A DNA stretch of 32,015 nucleotides, from assembly GCA_949292205.1 (NCBI GenBank), contig CASEYR010000006.1, positions 1 through 32,015 on the forward strand, read 5' to 3'. This DNA is from an uncultured Alphaproteobacteria bacterium. Lineage in GTDB: Bacteria; Pseudomonadota; Alphaproteobacteria; CAAHEQ01; UBA3637. The notes beneath the pieces were generated by a model. It did not search any database, was not told the DNA's origin, and was given only the letters and a program-made list of their open reading frames with translations. The position numbers and the translations under genes were made by a program. Each line of letters begins with the position of its first letter. The stretch's first letter is position 1. Positions 1,998 to 9,632 of the stretch are shown piece after piece.

Positions 1998-3152
1998 ATG
2001 ATTGAATTGTGGACTCCTTCTGTTTTGACAATAAATAAGGCACTGGGCGGACGTATGCGTTTGGTCGGGGGGTGTGTGCGCGACTTTTTATCTGATAAAA
2101 GGCCTCATGATTGGGATATCGCAACACCGATTGAGCCGAATGAAGTGTCTGTGTTGCTTAAAAAAGAGGGAATTCGTGTTATACCGACCTCATTAAAGCA
2201 TGGGATTATGACGGCTTTTATCGACAATCAATCGTATGAAATTGCAACTCTGCGAGAGGATGTTATGACTGATGGCAGTCAGGCAACAATTCGTTATACA
2301 GATAGCTATGAGACGGATGCCAGACGGCGTGACTTTACCATTAATGCACTATCTATGGATCTGGACGGAAATGTCTATGACTATTTTGGGGGCATCGCGG
2401 ATTTGAAAAACAAAATTGTTCGGTTTATTGGGGATCCTGCCGATCGTATTCCGGAAGATTTTATTCGTATTTATCGCTATTTCCGTTTTTGGTCCGTCTT
2501 CGGCGGACCTGAGCCAGATCCGAAAATCGTTGATTTGTGTCAGAAACATCGTCAGGGCTTGTCTTGCGTATCTAAAGAACGTCGAAAAAAAGAGTTCCTT
2601 AAAATTTTAATGAGCCCGCGTGTTATAACAACTTTGGAATGGATGACTCGTGTCGATGTTTTGAGATATATTTTACGCTCTCCGGATATTGCCGGACTTA
2701 AAATGTTGTTGGATTTGTATCCGGATGCCGGTCTGTTAGAACGTTTGGCTATCGTGAGTCGTGGAGTGGATTTGTCTTATCTGAACTTAGAGCGAAATCA
2801 AAAATCGTTTTTGGAACAATTAGATCAGCCTGTCGCTTTTCAAGATGAGCATGCTTTGAAGCTGATTCGCGGATTTAAAGGGGAGCGCGTTTTTCGCTTC
2901 TTGTTATGTCGCGGATTGATTCAAGGTAAAATATCTAAAAATCAATATGATGCTTGTATGCAGTTACAGGTGCCGGAAATGCCTGTTACACTGTCGGATA
3001 TTCAGCTAATGCCGGGAATGAAAAAAGAAAGAAAACGTCAAGAGGCTATGCAAATCTTATGCCGTTTATGGGTTGATTTGGACTTTCCCGCTGATAAAGC
3101 TTTTTTAATGCAACAATATACTAACTATTTGAAATCTATTAGGAGGTTATAA
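1998..3152 (+). CDS. cca: CCA tRNA nucleotidyltransferase
   Basis: This class-II nucleotidyltransferase adds or repairs the CCA end of tRNAs using CTP and ATP. Its 384 residues carry the expected head domain. The GG motif is in LVGGCVRDF (22-30), the metal-binding DxD in HDWDIAT (D38, D40), the nucleotide-selecting region in RRRDFTINAL (109-118), and the neck motif in FIRIYRYFRFW (155-165). The rest is the helical tRNA-binding tail. No HD domain is evident, so it is the short form typical of alphaproteobacteria. The start at 1998 is the only ATG that leaves room for the promoter. Its stop overlaps the ATG of the prepilin gene (TAATG). A poly(A) polymerase role is possible for this superfamily but less likely at this length. 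Confidence 0.93.
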   Translation: MIELWTPSVLTINKALGGRMRLVGGCVRDFLSDKRPHDWDIATPIEPNEVSVLLKKEGIRVIPTSLKHGIMTAFIDNQSYEIATLREDVMTDGSQATIRYTDSYETDARRRDFTINALSMDLDGNVYDYFGGIADLKNKIVRFIGDPADRIPEDFIRIYRYFRFWSVFGGPEPDPKIVDLCQKHRQGLSCVSKERRKKEFLKILMSPRVITTLEWMTRVDVLRYILRSPDIAGLKMLLDLYPDAGLLERLAIVSRGVDLSYLNLERNQKSFLEQLDQPVAFQDEHALKLIRGFKGERVFRFLLCRGLIQGKISKNQYDACMQLQVPEMPVTLSDIQLMPGMKKERKRQEAMQILCRLWVDLDFPADKAFLMQQYTNYLKSIRRL

Positions 3153-3631
3153 TGGCTATTTCTCAAAATGAATCCGGACGAAGCCTGATTGAAATGTTGG
3201 CGGTTATCAGTGTGATCTCAATGATAACTATCGGCTCTATCTCGGCAATGAATTACGGAATGCAGACTTATCGCGCTAATGCAAGCTATGATTTGGTTGA
3301 ATCTACGGCTCAACGTGTGTCGGATTTATATTCTTGGGTGCGAACATATCCTTCTGCCGATAAAATGAAAACCCAAATCTGTGAAAATGACATTTTTGAT
3401 GGTGGTTGTATTGAAGGAGAGTCTGTCGCAACGGCTGCCGCGCCATGGGGACAGATTAAAATTGATCGTGAGGATGATGCGACTTTTAGAATTACATTGA
3501 CAAATGTGCCTCAACGGGGATGCGAACTTTTGAAACAAATGGGATGGCAATATGTGCAACCTTTGAACGGAACCTGGCGTGACTATTCTTGTCCCGAGGG
3601 AGCGGCCGATATTATTATGACATCTTATTAA
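3152..3631 (+). CDS. Orphan type IV prepilin-like protein
   Basis: A 159-residue protein with a class III-like prepilin signal. A nine-residue leader ends in Gly, followed by RSLIEML and a hydrophobic helix (about 12-32); Glu at +5 of the mature chain is kept. The +1 residue is Arg rather than the usual Phe or Met. The globular part has four cysteines (in QICEND, GGCIEG, RGCELL, YSCPEG), so up to two disulfides are possible. It resembles PilS-type pilins at the N-terminus only. A strong AGGAGG lies just before the ATG, which overlaps the cca stop (TAATG), so it is translated with cca. No pilus assembly genes are nearby. It could be a minor pilin or pseudopilin, or a DNA-uptake or surface protein. 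Function not determined. Confidence 0.8.
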   Translation: MAISQNESGRSLIEMLAVISVISMITIGSISAMNYGMQTYRANASYDLVESTAQRVSDLYSWVRTYPSADKMKTQICENDIFDGGCIEGESVATAAAPWGQIKIDREDDATFRITLTNVPQRGCELLKQMGWQYVQPLNGTWRDYSCPEGAADIIMTSY

Positions 3632-3640
3632 CGTTAGTCG

Positions 3641-3677
3641 CACAAAAAAAGCGGAGATTAACCTCCGCTTTTTTGTG
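3641..3677. terminator. Strong bidirectional rho-independent terminator
   Basis: An A-rich left arm ending in GCGGAG (3641-3656) pairs with CTCCGC plus a T-tract (3663-3677), a near-perfect stem with a short loop. The A-run on one side and T-run on the other let it stop transcripts from both the prepilin gene (+) and the 1020-aa gene (-). Confidence 0.9.
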
Positions 3678-3711: not shown

Positions 3712-6700
3712 TCAAGAGCGTCCTTGCAGTTGATTTTTTAGTCGCCACTGTTGCAATGCATTGTTATCAGGTGCATTGGTAGAAGAACCTTGTGTCTTGA
3801 CGATTTGTGCCTCCCGATGGCGAGTCAAAACTTGATATCCGATCAAAGATAGGGATTTATTTTCCGGATGAAGGTTTCTAAAATCAGATAATGCCCCAAC
3901 GGTTGCATCAAACAAAGACAAATTCGGATTAGATAAACGTCTGTCCTGAATATCTTGAGAAATAGTCTTAAGTGCTAATGCCGTTTCATTCGGGTTCATA
4001 GCCTGCCAAGTTTCTTGCTGTTGCGTTGAGAACCCAATAGATGGTCCAACCGCTTCCATATAGCGTATTTGTTGGGCTGGAGTCATGCCTGATAAAACGG
4101 ATTTCATGTTATGTCTGTAATTATCAATCATATCGGCACAAGCAACCATATTATCAACGGTAAATCGATCAATAACAATTCCGTCCACAGTATATACGGA
4201 AATACGTGGTCCCGCTATTTGATTGCGTGCTAATTTATTTCCGATGGCATCGCTGATTCCGACATTATTTCGCTTCATCGTTTCCAAGAAAAAACTATAT
4301 TCATTTTGAATAATAACTTGGTCTTTTCCGCCGACGGGAATATGTCTATTCCGACCTGTTAACGGAAATGCCGTCCAATTGGCTTGCACTAAGCGGGTGC
4401 CTGACATACGAGGCATAGGTGTCCATGCGCGTGCTGTCGTCGGATTGCTGTATCGGATTGTTCCCGAGGGAGTGGGTGATGCAACCCGAGTGATCGGTTT
4501 TGTAACACGAACAACTTCCGGTGCCGGTTTTGTTTCGTCTTCTTGTTCCTTGTCTGCATCGGCAACCATATGAACGGGAGGTAATTGGGTAGATTGATTA
4601 TCTTTCCTATCTTTTTTACCAAATCCAAAAAAGGCTACCAATGTAGATAAGCCGATTATACCTGCCGCAGTAGAAAGTGCGGCAAATTTCATTAAAGAGC
4701 TTCTTTGATTCAACGGAACACTTAAAATAATGTCCCCCATTGTTTTATCATAGTTCTTGTGGAATGCTACCGGTCCTAATATGGAGGGGCTTTTTCCGCG
4801 GAGTAGATCGTTTAACTTGACCAGCGACTTATCATTGTAGGCATCTCGTTCGGTTGTCCCAATCTGTTGTTCCGATAAATATGTCTTGAACGGTTTTTTC
4901 CAATAGTGGCAAAAGTGTTCAAAATCTTGTTTGTCATCTCCTTCAGATTCATAATCTGTTGCTTTGAATAACGCGTTACGATAGATTTCCGTTTCATAAT
5001 ACTGACGTAACGTTTCATCAGCATATTGTATTTGATCTTGTTCGGGCTGAGGTTCCGGTTGTGGCTCGGGCTGAATCTCTTGCTGTGGCTCGGGCTGAGG
5101 TTCCGGCTGTGGTTGAACGCTATCCTGTCTTTGTTGCACTTTTCTCTTTAAGGCTTCCTCTATATCCTGATAGTCGTGAATATTGCGGAACTCTAAACTT
5201 GTCAGATTTTGAGCGGCACTTTCCGGAACAATGGTTTGATTATTTAATTCATCAATCCGTTTGTTTAATGCTTCTTCTTGATCCATTTCTGCCCAAACGG
5301 CATCTAAATCAAAGCGTCCGTCATCCATGGCATTCGGAATGAAATCCATCATATCATGATTGTCCCGTTCTTGTTCCATTGCGGATAAACGTGCTTGTTC
5401 TTCCTCTTGATCCATCTCTGCCCATGTCGTATCAACATCAAAGACTGTCGGCATGCCGGCAGGAATATAGGAGGATGGTGTGTGATTATCACGATTTTCC
5501 TCTAAAAAGCGAATCTCTGCTTGTTTCTTATTGACTGCTTCCTTTTCATTCTTATGAACGATAGAGCGTACAATTCCTTGTTGTGCTTTATTTAATGTTT
5601 CTTTCAGTGTCGCATTTTCCGCTTTCATTTCGGCAATGGTTGCGTTTTTACCCTGCTTGACAGATGGCTGATTCAGCTGTTGTCGAAGCATATTATTTCG
5701 CTGTGCCCAAACGGCTTTCTCCGTTTCTGTTCGATCTTGAAGAGCCGCATTTTCTTCCATTAATTTTTTAAGCGTCTTGCCCCCCGCTGTTGTCGGAATT
5801 GGCTTGAACAACTGTTCTCGCAACTCTTTATTATCTTGTGTCCACTTGGATTTTTGTTCATTTAGATCCGCCATCTTGCGACGCATTTCTTGTAGACTTT
5901 CATCCGATTGTAATGCCGGTTTTAAGACAACTTGGGAAATGGGGGTGTTCCAATCCTCTTTAAAAGCTTGCCAGCTTTGTTCTATTCCTTGTCCGTTGAT
6001 TCGACGCAAAGCCCGATAATAGCGTTGAACCTCTACATCATGAAAAACCGCTTCTATATCTTGAGCCTCTTTGCCGGCATGCCGTTTCCGATAAATGTTG
6101 GAAAACAAGTTTTGTGGTGTTGTTTCCAATAATTCTTGAACTTCCTCAATCAGGATAAAGCGAGCCGGAATCCCCTTGATTTGTGATACGGCGGTCAACC
6201 CCCGAGATTCTGCCGAGGATAAATCGGCGCGAATCAAAGGACGGCGTTCAACCAGTTCAAATAATGATTCATTCCAGTCTCGTCTTAAAACCGATGTCGG
6301 AACTTTTTGTCCGGACGGTAGACGGTATAGTGTTTGCACCGCTTGTAGGAATAAGTCGTTTGTTGCTGCCTTTGTTATTGATTTTTCATGTGTCAGAGCA
6401 TAAGCCAATGTCGCCAATGTTTTTGTGTGTGCGAAATCAGACACATCCGAAATATCAACCGCACGACCGACTGTTCCGTGTGTCAGGTTGAAAATCTTGG
6501 TTAATCTCTGTTGATCGGGTGTTTTGAGTGACGGCAAGCGCGGCATCCGTTGACGTCGTTCTGTTGTTTCGTTTTGGGTTGGCGGTAAGGAAGCCGTTGT
6601 CGTATCTTGAGTTGACTCTGAAGAAACAGTCCTGACGGATGTTGCATCAACAATCAATGGATCTTCCCCTTGGGTCAAACTAACCTCGGGATTGGCTGTG

Positions 6701-6774
6701 CGTTGAACGCGTCTCCGATGAATGATTGTTTCCTCCTCAATGATTTCCTCTGCATTGAATTTATTGTCGCTCAT
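3712..6774 (-). CDS. Large orphan bitopic membrane protein with coiled-coil and internal repeats
   Basis: I do not recognise a family. The frame begins at 6792, but AAGGAGG lies just before the ATG at 6774, so the real protein is 1020 residues (residue numbers below count from that ATG). Residues 1-90 are polar and disordered-looking. About 90-290 is a mixed globular region. About 308-398 holds two copies of a 45-residue coiled-coil unit (each with a W-x-Q core and an L-R-x-Q-L motif). About 425-505 holds two copies of a 42-43-residue acidic unit (RDNH, then FIP or YIP, then WAEMDQEE). A PQPEP-rich linker spans about 554-579. One membrane helix lies at about 697-719, followed by KK. The remaining 300 residues start with a Pro/Thr-rich linker and end in a globular domain. 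There is no signal peptide, so the large N-terminal part is predicted cytoplasmic and the C-terminal part periplasmic. It follows the antiporter by 21 bp in one operon. A structural, tethering or cell-envelope scaffold role is a guess from architecture. Confidence 0.85.
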   Translation of the reverse strand: MSDNKFNAEEIIEEETIIHRRRVQRTANPEVSLTQGEDPLIVDATSVRTVSSESTQDTTTASLPPTQNETTERRQRMPRLPSLKTPDQQRLTKIFNLTHGTVGRAVDISDVSDFAHTKTLATLAYALTHEKSITKAATNDLFLQAVQTLYRLPSGQKVPTSVLRRDWNESLFELVERRPLIRADLSSAESRGLTAVSQIKGIPARFILIEEVQELLETTPQNLFSNIYRKRHAGKEAQDIEAVFHDVEVQRYYRALRRINGQGIEQSWQAFKEDWNTPISQVVLKPALQSDESLQEMRRKMADLNEQKSKWTQDNKELREQLFKPIPTTAGGKTLKKLMEENAALQDRTETEKAVWAQRNNMLRQQLNQPSVKQGKNATIAEMKAENATLKETLNKAQQGIVRSIVHKNEKEAVNKKQAEIRFLEENRDNHTPSSYIPAGMPTVFDVDTTWAEMDQEEEQARLSAMEQERDNHDMMDFIPNAMDDGRFDLDAVWAEMDQEEALNKRIDELNNQTIVPESAAQNLTSLEFRNIHDYQDIEEALKRKVQQRQDSVQPQPEPQPEPQQEIQPEPQPEPQPEQDQIQYADETLRQYYETEIYRNALFKATDYESEGDDKQDFEHFCHYWKKPFKTYLSEQQIGTTERDAYNDKSLVKLNDLLRGKSPSILGPVAFHKNYDKTMGDIILSVPLNQRSSLMKFAALSTAAGIIGLSTLVAFFGFGKKDRKDNQSTQLPPVHMVADADKEQEDETKPAPEVVRVTKPITRVASPTPSGTIRYSNPTTARAWTPMPRMSGTRLVQANWTAFPLTGRNRHIPVGGKDQVIIQNEYSFFLETMKRNNVGISDAIGNKLARNQIAGPRISVYTVDGIVIDRFTVDNMVACADMIDNYRHNMKSVLSGMTPAQQIRYMEAVGPSIGFSTQQQETWQAMNPNETALALKTISQDIQDRRLSNPNLSLFDATVGALSDFRNLHPENKSLSLIGYQVLTRHREAQIVKTQGSSTNAPDNNALQQWRLKNQLQGRS

Positions 6775-6795
6775 AGAATCCTCCTTAATCATAAT

Positions 6796-8616
6796 TTATT
6801 CTTCAATTATATCAGATTTGCTTGCTTTGTCAATATTTTTATGAAGTTCGGTTTTCATAATGCGTGTTTTGGCGTAGAATGAGCGTTGGCGGGTCGGGTC
6901 AATATCCAGGCCCAAGCTGGTCGGAAGACCTTCTTTCAAGCCACGAACAACAAGCTCGACTTTGTCTACCGCAAGACGATCTCCGACTTCTATGTCTGTG
7001 AATTCTTGTTTCATAAATGCAGAGATGGCGGTGCTCAACAAATCTTTTGGAACGTGAATGCCGTATAAGGAGACTAACTCTCCAAATGTCGTTTCGGGCG
7101 ATATCGGAAAATCGCCGAATATATCTCGCGGATCAACCGTATCCGTATCGTTTCCGTCGCCATAAAGATGATCTAATTCTAATCGGCGACTGGCTGAGGG
7201 GAGAAAAACATATACTTTGTCCCCTTCTTTGAGCTGTTTGCGAATGGTTCCCGAAGAATAGGCTATGCCGTTACGCACAACCAAAGCGGGGTTCGCCCAA
7301 CGGGGAACGGGAGTGCCGAGGACTACCGGACTTTGTGCTGTTAGTTGATACAAAACCAGGGAACTGTCGGCAAGTCCGGGTAAATCTACCTCGGCAACCG
7401 CCGGCGGGAGTGTTGTTTGCGGAACGGTTACGTGGCACAGGCGTGCTACTAGCGGTATTAAAAAACCTTGCAAAGACAGACTGAGCAAAACCATCACAAA
7501 AATAGTGTTGAAAAATTGATCCGCAAACGGTAGTCCGTAGACAATCGGGGTTAGGGCTAATAAAATAGAAGTGGCTCCGCGTAGACCGACAAACGAAATA
7601 AAGTTTTTTTCGGTGCTTGAATAGCTCTTGAAAAATGATAAGATACTCCACACCATAACCGGTCGTGCAACAAGCATTAAAACAAATCCTAAAAGAAGTG
7701 CCGGCTTCCAATATTGCTCTAGTCCCGATACGGTGACAAAGAGTCCGAGGCAGGTAAACATGGTGATTTGAGAAAGCCATGTAATTGTTTGTTGAAACTT
7801 GGATATTTGATTGTGCACTTGTATCGTGCTGTTCCCGCTTAGTAAACCGGCAATATAGACGGCTAAAAATCCGGAACCGCCCAGCATATTTGTTAAAGCA
7901 AATCCGAATAGGGTCAGACTGAGAACAAATATAGGATATAGAGCGGTTTCCAGTTTGACATGATTGACGCAAAAAGGTATCGCTTTTCCGAGTAGATAGC
8001 CTACGCCGCCACCGATTAGCAGTTGTCCCAAAAATAAAAGCGTCAACATCCAGTAAGATGTTGGGGTGCCACTGGCTTGGTGTTGAATCAAGGTAATGCA
8101 CGAAACGGTTAGGAAAATTGCCATCGGATCGTTGGCTCCGGATTCTACCTCTAGAATTGCCTTGACTTTTTCTCGTAATCTAATCCCTTGTGATCGTAGC
8201 AGAAAAAAAACAGCGGCCGAGTCGGTGGAGCTGATGATGGCGACAAGTAAAAAAGCCGGCAACCATCCGATTGAGAGAACCTCTTTTGCAAACGGTGTCG
8301 TTAAAAGCGCTGTTAAAACAACGCCGACTGTTGCTAGTAAAATGGCGGGACGGTTGGCTAATCTGTAGTTCTTCATCTTTGTTTGAAAACCACTGTCAAA
8401 TAAAATTAAGGCTAACGCCAATGAACCGATAAAAAAGCAAATGCGGGGTCTTTGTAGGGTTTCTAACATATCAAAACCACCAATGCCCGCTATGACACCG
8501 ATACACAAAAATATCAAAATTAAAGGTATGCCGATTCGGAGAGAAACTAAACTGGTCAGAACACTGACTCCGAGTAAAAGTCCAAAAAGCAGTATCGGCA
8601 AATTAACAAAGTCCAT
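6796..8616 (-). CDS. nhaP2: K+/H+ antiporter, CPA1 family (NhaP2/CvrA type)
   Basis: A 606-residue inner-membrane antiporter that exchanges K+ (possibly Na+) for protons and helps volume and pH control. The first about 395 residues are strongly hydrophobic with some 12 membrane helices. The transport core motifs are visible: SSTDSAAVF (T131, D132) and ESGANDPMA (N162, D163), the ND pair typical of electroneutral CPA1 exchangers. A cytoplasmic TrkA_C/RCK_C-like segment follows (about 405-480), then a CorC/HlyC-type transporter-associated domain (about 490-575). This order is that of NhaP2/CvrA, and the length agrees. It starts 5 bp after the LOG gene stop, preceded by an AAGGA-type site, so the two are co-transcribed. 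The RCK part suggests control by a nucleotide ligand; this is family knowledge, not seen here. Confidence 0.88.
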   Translation of the reverse strand: MDFVNLPILLFGLLLGVSVLTSLVSLRIGIPLILIFLCIGVIAGIGGFDMLETLQRPRICFFIGSLALALILFDSGFQTKMKNYRLANRPAILLATVGVVLTALLTTPFAKEVLSIGWLPAFLLVAIISSTDSAAVFFLLRSQGIRLREKVKAILEVESGANDPMAIFLTVSCITLIQHQASGTPTSYWMLTLLFLGQLLIGGGVGYLLGKAIPFCVNHVKLETALYPIFVLSLTLFGFALTNMLGGSGFLAVYIAGLLSGNSTIQVHNQISKFQQTITWLSQITMFTCLGLFVTVSGLEQYWKPALLLGFVLMLVARPVMVWSILSFFKSYSSTEKNFISFVGLRGATSILLALTPIVYGLPFADQFFNTIFVMVLLSLSLQGFLIPLVARLCHVTVPQTTLPPAVAEVDLPGLADSSLVLYQLTAQSPVVLGTPVPRWANPALVVRNGIAYSSGTIRKQLKEGDKVYVFLPSASRRLELDHLYGDGNDTDTVDPRDIFGDFPISPETTFGELVSLYGIHVPKDLLSTAISAFMKQEFTDIEVGDRLAVDKVELVVRGLKEGLPTSLGLDIDPTRQRSFYAKTRIMKTELHKNIDKASKSDIIEE

Positions 8617-8621
8617 ATAAC

Positions 8622-9632
8622 TTATCCTTTTCGGCGGACAGAACGTCTTTTGAGAGAGCTTAATTTGTAACTGACGGCTGCTGTATCCCGTCCCGATTTG
8701 GCGAGACGATTATACATGCGTTCAATTTCCTTATTGAGGTATGCGCTTTCTATTTGTTGAGTCAGTTTTTGCTTCCTTGTTTTTCCCGTCCCTTGTAAAA
8801 TCATATCTTTTTCATCTAAAATATCGGAAATACTTTTGTGCGGGCATATCGTCTTTTGTTCAATAACATAGGGTAGGTCGTAAATGATGTGTTCAACGGT
8901 TTCACGTGCCTGCATTTTATCCATTTTGTGATAGTATCGTCCCAGCATCTCAAAGGCTATGCCTGCTTCCAGACTATTATCTACAACAATGAACGGCATC
9001 GGATCGGAAAAGCCTTTTTGATGAATGTCTTTTAAATACTCTAACAGATGATGAAAAAAGCCCTCTGTATTGAAAAGAATAAATGGCTTGAAATCCAAAA
9101 AACCATCTTGCATGGCTACACAGTCATAGGATAATTCATCTAGTGTTCCGACACCGCCGGGAGTAAAAATAACAAAATCGGCATTTAAAAGCTGTTGTTT
9201 TCGTTCTTCCAGTGTGTGAGCTACAATGATGTCAGAAACCTGATCTATGACTTCGTCACTTTGGTAAAGTGCAAGATATTCTTTTGTCGTAACAGCATGT
9301 ATCGGGGTTTGTGAGCGACGCCCTTTTCGCGCCCATGTATCTAAAACACCTCGTGCAACGGCCCCCATAATGCCTCGGGATGAAAGTCCGAAGTCAAGTC
9401 GGTAATTATGACGGCCGATTTCTTGTCCTAAGCGAAAGGCTTCTTGCTCATAAACTTTTCTGTTTCCGGAGCGAGAGCCTCCGGCAACAAAGACGCGTGT
9501 CGTTCCTTGTTCGTTTTCGGACAAAAATGCCGAGGCGACTTTGCCGGGCTTTGTTGAATTCAGTTGATATTTTTGCTCTCGCTCCAGAAGGCCGGATCCT
9601 CGTTCTAGCGAAATTTCAATCGGTGAACTCAT
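8622..9632 (-). CDS. LOG family protein (TIGR00730-like, Rossmann-fold)
   Basis: A 336-residue protein with the LOG/lysine-decarboxylase-like core. It has VFVAGGSRSGN (47-57), an ERK segment near 142, and the catalytic nucleotide-binding PGGVGTLDE (158-166, matching PGGxGTxxE). Family members cleave nucleoside 5'-monophosphates to base and ribose 5-phosphate (LONELY GUY activity); the name lysine decarboxylase in databases is historical. Two things are odd. The usual GGGxxGLMG loop reads FGLSSRGIMG (81-90), and the N-terminus (about 45 residues) and a basic C-terminal tail (from about 240) exceed the short 180-200-residue LOG form. It heads the operon with the antiporter and the orphan membrane protein. 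AAAGGA lies before the ATG. The exact substrate cannot be told. Confidence 0.82.
   Translation of the reverse strand: MSSPIEISLERGSGLLEREQKYQLNSTKPGKVASAFLSENEQGTTRVFVAGGSRSGNRKVYEQEAFRLGQEIGRHNYRLDFGLSSRGIMGAVARGVLDTWARKGRRSQTPIHAVTTKEYLALYQSDEVIDQVSDIIVAHTLEERKQQLLNADFVIFTPGGVGTLDELSYDCVAMQDGFLDFKPFILFNTEGFFHHLLEYLKDIHQKGFSDPMPFIVVDNSLEAGIAFEMLGRYYHKMDKMQARETVEHIIYDLPYVIEQKTICPHKSISDILDEKDMILQGTGKTRKQKLTQQIESAYLNKEIERMYNRLAKSGRDTAAVSYKLSSLKRRSVRRKG

Follow-up and report, generated by a model that had tools for sequence, protein, structure and literature searches.

Gene organization at the locus

The window, that is, the whole stretch of 32,015 nt from an uncultured alphaproteobacterium analysed here, carries on its minus strand a gene for a large bitopic protein with one membrane helix (Table 1). 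The longest open frame covers 3712–6792 and encodes 1026 residues, while the ATG at 6774 (MSDNKF) gives a protein of 1020 residues and is preferred over the start at 6792 because AAGGAGG lies 5 nt upstream of it. The initial annotation had placed the gene at 3712–6774, which is correct, and the strand, left unstated there, is minus. The gene lies 21 nt from the end of that for a K+/H+ antiporter, whose product matches NF003715 (E 2.6e-181), and the first gene of the operon encodes a LOG-like protein identified by PF03641; the operon described earlier is borne out by these two matches.

Beyond the bitopic-protein gene, a convergent gene (3152–3631) encodes a small pilin-like protein with the prepilin-like N-terminus GRSLIEMLAVISVISMITIGSIS, for which a Pfam search was empty; this pilin-like gene adjoins a CCA gene in five genomes. 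The inverted repeat between the two convergent genes is probably a bidirectional terminator.

Table 1. Features of the bitopic-protein locus. Residue numbers of the repeats, linker, FxxxW modules, membrane segment and C-terminal domain follow the 1026-residue frame.
Feature	Position	Strand	Residues	Basis or remark
Inverted repeat with A/T tracts	3645..3674	unstranded		between bitopic-protein gene and convergent pilin-like gene
Bitopic protein coding sequence, 1020 aa	3712..6774	minus		start ATG at 6774; same-slot homologues
C-terminal helical domain, predicted periplasmic	3805..4332	minus	821–996	alignment, AlphaFold2, leave-one-genus-out
Single transmembrane segment	4627..4683	minus	704–722	hydrophobic segment
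Degenerate FxxxW module 4	4708..4836	minus	653–695	
Degenerate FxxxW module 3	4861..4998	minus	599–644	
QPEP linker	5038..5118	minus	559–585	cytoplasmic side of membrane helix
Acidic WAEMDQEE repeat, copy 2	5272..5400	minus	465–507	self-comparison
Acidic WAEMDQEE repeat, copy 1	5401..5529	minus	422–464	self-comparison
Helical repeat, copy 2	5599..5721	minus	358–398	self-comparison
Helical repeat, copy 1	5734..5856	minus	313–353	score 69 against shuffle maximum 44
Degenerate FxxxW module 2	5911..6039	minus	252–294	
Degenerate FxxxW module 1	6232..6357	minus	146–187	
Shine-Dalgarno AAGGAGG	6780..6786	minus		5 nt ahead of the 6774 ATG
K+/H+ antiporter (CvrA/NhaP2 type)	6796..8616	minus		directly upstream, same operon
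LOG-like (lysine decarboxylase-like Rossmann) protein	8622..9632	minus		first gene of the operon

Membrane topology and the C-terminal domain

One late membrane helix had been claimed at about residues 697–719, and a single hydrophobic segment is indeed seen, at 698–716 in the 1020-residue numbering of that account (704–722 in the longer frame). Each of the nine homologues has one clear hydrophobic segment at this junction, and across the homologues that occupy the same genomic slot 57–703 residues precede the helix and 297–469 follow it. The further claim of a large cytoplasmic part and a periplasmic end draws its support mainly from the relatives, since of the 13 slot proteins 12 have the more basic flank on the N-side of the helix and only the window protein itself does not. 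From this we infer that the N-terminus lies in the cytoplasm and the C-terminus in the periplasm of the cell. In the proteins of G001, G003, G008 and G017 the C-terminus, read by eye, is also formed by a weakly hydrophobic segment and a basic tail.

The portion common to all nine homologues is the part of ∼300 residues after the membrane helix. Within it, a C-terminal domain of ∼175 residues is predicted by AlphaFold2 (pLDDT 80, pTM 0.78) to consist of helices and one small hairpin. Sequence searches with this domain gave no match in Pfam, NCBIfam or PDB, and fold searches with Foldseek, VIA-align and BFVD gave none among the matches listed; the best structural scores were a Foldseek E of 0.3 and a VIA-align Z of 7.2 over 67 residues, and the rows for spider-silk C-terminal domains and ExbB/TolQ (Z 4–7, ∼70 residues) are regarded as helical arrangements of a common kind. 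With the window protein, too, Pfam and NCBIfam gave no curated family and PDB sequence searches were empty, consistent with the earlier statement that no known family is evident, and the sole Pfam match at E ≤ 1 in the 1026-residue protein is compositional and lies over the QPEP stretch. No obvious set of catalytic residues was seen in the conserved columns and, because these are mainly hydrophobic or occupied by G, P, L and N, a binding rather than a catalytic domain is favoured, one that would be devoid of enzyme activity.

Repeats in the cytoplasmic part

The two internal duplications proposed for the cytoplasmic part are real. In ungapped self-comparison, spacings of 45, 43 and 42 residues scored 69, 65 and 57, respectively, whereas 20 shuffles preserving the local composition reached 44 at most, and the acidic copies are still recognisable in the DNA (44 nt, 80%). 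Both duplications look specific to the species of the window, because neither the 45-residue nor the acidic repeat rises above shuffle level in the relatives, apart from a marginal score in G003 (48 against a maximum of 46). The description of the helical stretch as a coiled coil is supported for its first third only: heptad periodicity is significant in residues 296–332 alone (p 0.008), whereas the remaining stretch gives p 0.3–0.5.

A second repeat type, absent from the earlier account, is formed by four degenerate units of ∼43 residues with an FxxxW core, also in the cytoplasmic part; G002 likewise has four such units and G013 has five. Their profiles detect each other weakly across groups (window-genus modules find those of G013 at E 0.011 or 0.0015, and the reverse comparison gives E 0.13) and the units were picked by eye, so that they are suggestive of a repeat older than the recent duplications. 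The acidic regions reach a net charge of −8 per 30 residues. A full-length model is too poor to use (pLDDT 44) and gives no confident prediction for the cytoplasmic part.

Homologues and their genomic position

The protein is less strange than it first appeared, because it has a family. A single-sequence search matched three other genomes of the window's genus, and the slot directly behind the antiporter is occupied by a positional homologue in all four genomes analysed from this genus and in five more, from three other genera; instead of the lack of homologues that had been considered, the gene is carried by nine genomes, from four related genera whose members have small genomes. The survey of this slot took in the position behind the antiporter in the 30 genomes of the bacterial family that have the antiporter. 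The slot proteins of G013, G008, G017, G025 and G019 align with those of the window's genus after the membrane helix, and leave-one-genus-out models recover g13 (E 4.5e-6), g6 (E 1e-3) and g11 (E 0.035). When the window's genus is set up as one group and the remaining three genera as another, a model built from either group gives about 0.14 as its best E; by hhalign, g11 matches g6 and g13 together at E 3.7e-5 and the window's genus finds nothing significant. It is likely that the proteins form one family spanning four genera, with the link to the window's genus leaning on position and topology, and likely too that the C-terminal domain is common to the homologues.

The profile of the shared domain gave no further match inside the bacterial family, and outside it nothing in 289 genomes of the class and 398 of the phylum. 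Slot proteins of genus g3 (G005, G026, G031, G039) have a membrane helix and were left out of the homologue count because the shared domain is not matched; these slots (L042, L045, L051, L054) hold other membrane-helix proteins, some of them Ser/Thr/Asn-rich, that are not recognisably related. The single match in a named genome, from SAR324 (L007), extends over no more than the helical stretch and is attributed to composition, and that in G057 is confined to the QPEP stretch. A phage origin was set aside, the window protein being unmatched in phage records, IMG/VR and PHROGs; one weak match to a PHROG of unknown function (E 0.001) was obtained with the G025 relative only.

The divergence of the bitopic protein is extreme. 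Its identity within the genus is 22–26%, against 70–73% for the antiporter and the LOG-like protein, with 70–79% for the membrane-fusion protein, 47–53% for the CCA gene and 38–49% for the pilin-like protein among the other neighbours. Conservation of the antiporter neighbourhood, a check suggested by the initial annotation, extends to all nine carriers, in which the gene directly follows the antiporter on the same strand while the opposite flank varies between genera (three members of the window's genus have a CCA/pilin-like gene there, G013 has lgt-type and other genes, G008 and G017 have an RsmB-like gene, and G025 and G019 have another gene). As the antiporter stays upstream while the downstream neighbour changes, a link between the bitopic protein and the antiporter operon is favoured. 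The slot is empty in G006 (genus g4, L055:7221–7226), where 5 bp separate the antiporter gene from a convergent RsmB-like gene, and the antiporter occurs without the bitopic protein in g2, g4, g5, g8 and g9, which means that the latter cannot be an obligatory antiporter subunit. The fixed same-strand position could still mean that the protein assists or regulates the co-transcribed antiporter, sensing the periplasm and acting on the antiporter's cytoplasmic regulatory part; however, both the genera that keep the antiporter alone and a rate of change that is odd for a dedicated partner, given the identities above, make such a role rather unlikely.

As a separate observation, type IV secretion loci are present in genome G000 on C10 (L092), C14 (L084:9108–11549) and C1 (L093:7222–9414), with VirB8, CagX with a weak SPOR match, a VirB11-like ATPase, two VirD4-type ATPases, a separate VirB4 and a VirB10-type domain within a 2282-residue frame. 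The same genome encodes an ankyrin-repeat protein of 387 residues (L084:18433–19596).

Discussion

Starting from the gene structure, repeats, shared position and divergence observed at this locus, we tentatively propose, with a confidence just short of evenly balanced, that the protein is an adaptor or scaffold anchored in the inner membrane, with a conserved periplasmic core and a lineage-specific cytoplasmic tail, co-expressed with the K+/H+ antiporter. In such an arrangement the N-terminus would be in the cytoplasm and the C-terminus in the periplasm, and the conserved core would be the ∼300-residue part past the helix, including the helical domain of ∼175 residues. The tail, specific to individual lineages, would be an extension that is short in some genera and reaches ∼700 residues here, where it consists of helical stretches, degenerate FxxxW modules and acidic units of recent duplication. 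Produced together with the LOG-like protein and the antiporter, the protein may act non-enzymatically, its periplasmic domain holding a putative envelope partner and its tail gathering putative cytoplasmic partners. It is the outer part that is retained and the inner part that varies, so the periplasm is the most likely seat of the core function, and the tail would be a scaffold added to it.

The locus thus presents a membrane anchor whose two sides may follow different evolutionary rules, the outer domain being retained and the inner tail free to grow within an operon that is otherwise conserved. Should the tail be a scaffold, the set of nine homologues would offer a natural series on the effects of repeat gain, and the unmatched C-terminal domain joins the structures worth solving. 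The broader view is unlikely when taken as a whole: it would make these proteins a new family, apparently limited to a single bacterial family and linked to the antiporter operon, whose periplasmic helical domain would have a fold not yet described and whose tail would be repeatedly rebuilt from new repeats while the core stays.

The nearest layout on record is that of PodJ, the polar scaffold of Caulobacter crescentus. This protein, 974 residues long, combines coiled coils in the cytoplasm and a charged disordered region with a single membrane anchor and a portion in the periplasm (PMC8980812). A functional counterpart of PodJ, whose cytoplasmic regions would gather signalling clients at the pole while its periplasmic domain anchors there, would account for the helical and acidic regions, the one helix and the ∼300 residues after it, and a DUF2497/PopZ-type gene is present in the window's genome and in most of the bacterial family (DUF2497 matches among the 14 control genomes occur in Caulobacter only, which points to an alphaproteobacterial affinity). 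However, the periplasmic Sel1/TPR repeats of PodJ have no Pfam match in the 1026-residue protein, nor has its peptidoglycan-binding domain a Pfam or NCBIfam match in the window protein, and because two of the domains that define PodJ are thus absent the protein is not classed as PodJ. The cytoplasmic part of the g13 proteins, moreover, is just 57–68 residues, too little for a scaffold that depends on it, and we regard a PodJ counterpart as rather improbable.

As a type IV secretion system occurs across the bacterial family (two VirD4-type ATPases in all nine genomes checked, a VirB10-type domain in six of the nine, and VirB4 in 41 of 42 family genomes), we also considered that the protein might be a secretion substrate, a membrane-anchored effector acting in a putative host. 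Such a substrate would carry a C-terminal signal for the coupling ATPase. This is in keeping with the fast evolution of the protein, its restriction to one lineage and the basic C-termini of all 13 slot proteins (net charge of the last 20 residues +2 to +6, background mean +0.9), but this is ranked low and is very unlikely given the fixed position in a housekeeping operon, the one copy per genome and the fact that 46% of 136 background ORFs reach +2 or more.

The adaptor or scaffold proposed here can be set against two known systems. The QPEP linker had been likened to the spacer of TonB, and both are Pro-Gln-Glu-rich stretches. The TonB-type Pro-rich spacer, however, is periplasmic and follows an N-terminal membrane helix, whereas the stretch in the window protein (559–585) precedes the helix (704–722), which would place it in the cytoplasm, on the wrong side of the membrane for a periplasm-spanning spacer. 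The window protein also lacks a detectable TonB C-terminal domain, and its match to the TonB model (E 0.077; 12.9 bits, where the cut-off is 315) is compositional, so that the comparison is not upheld. The second system, PodJ, differs in that some relatives of the window protein have almost no counterpart of its cytoplasmic part, and in that the C-terminal domain of the window protein is helical with a small hairpin and found no match. The likeness to PodJ, as read from sequence, lies in the overall plan: both proteins are of ∼1000 residues, with N-terminal helical and charged disordered regions, one anchor and a C-terminal part of a few hundred residues, and the window protein, with its single helix and long N-terminal cytoplasmic part, would likewise place its C-terminus in the periplasm.
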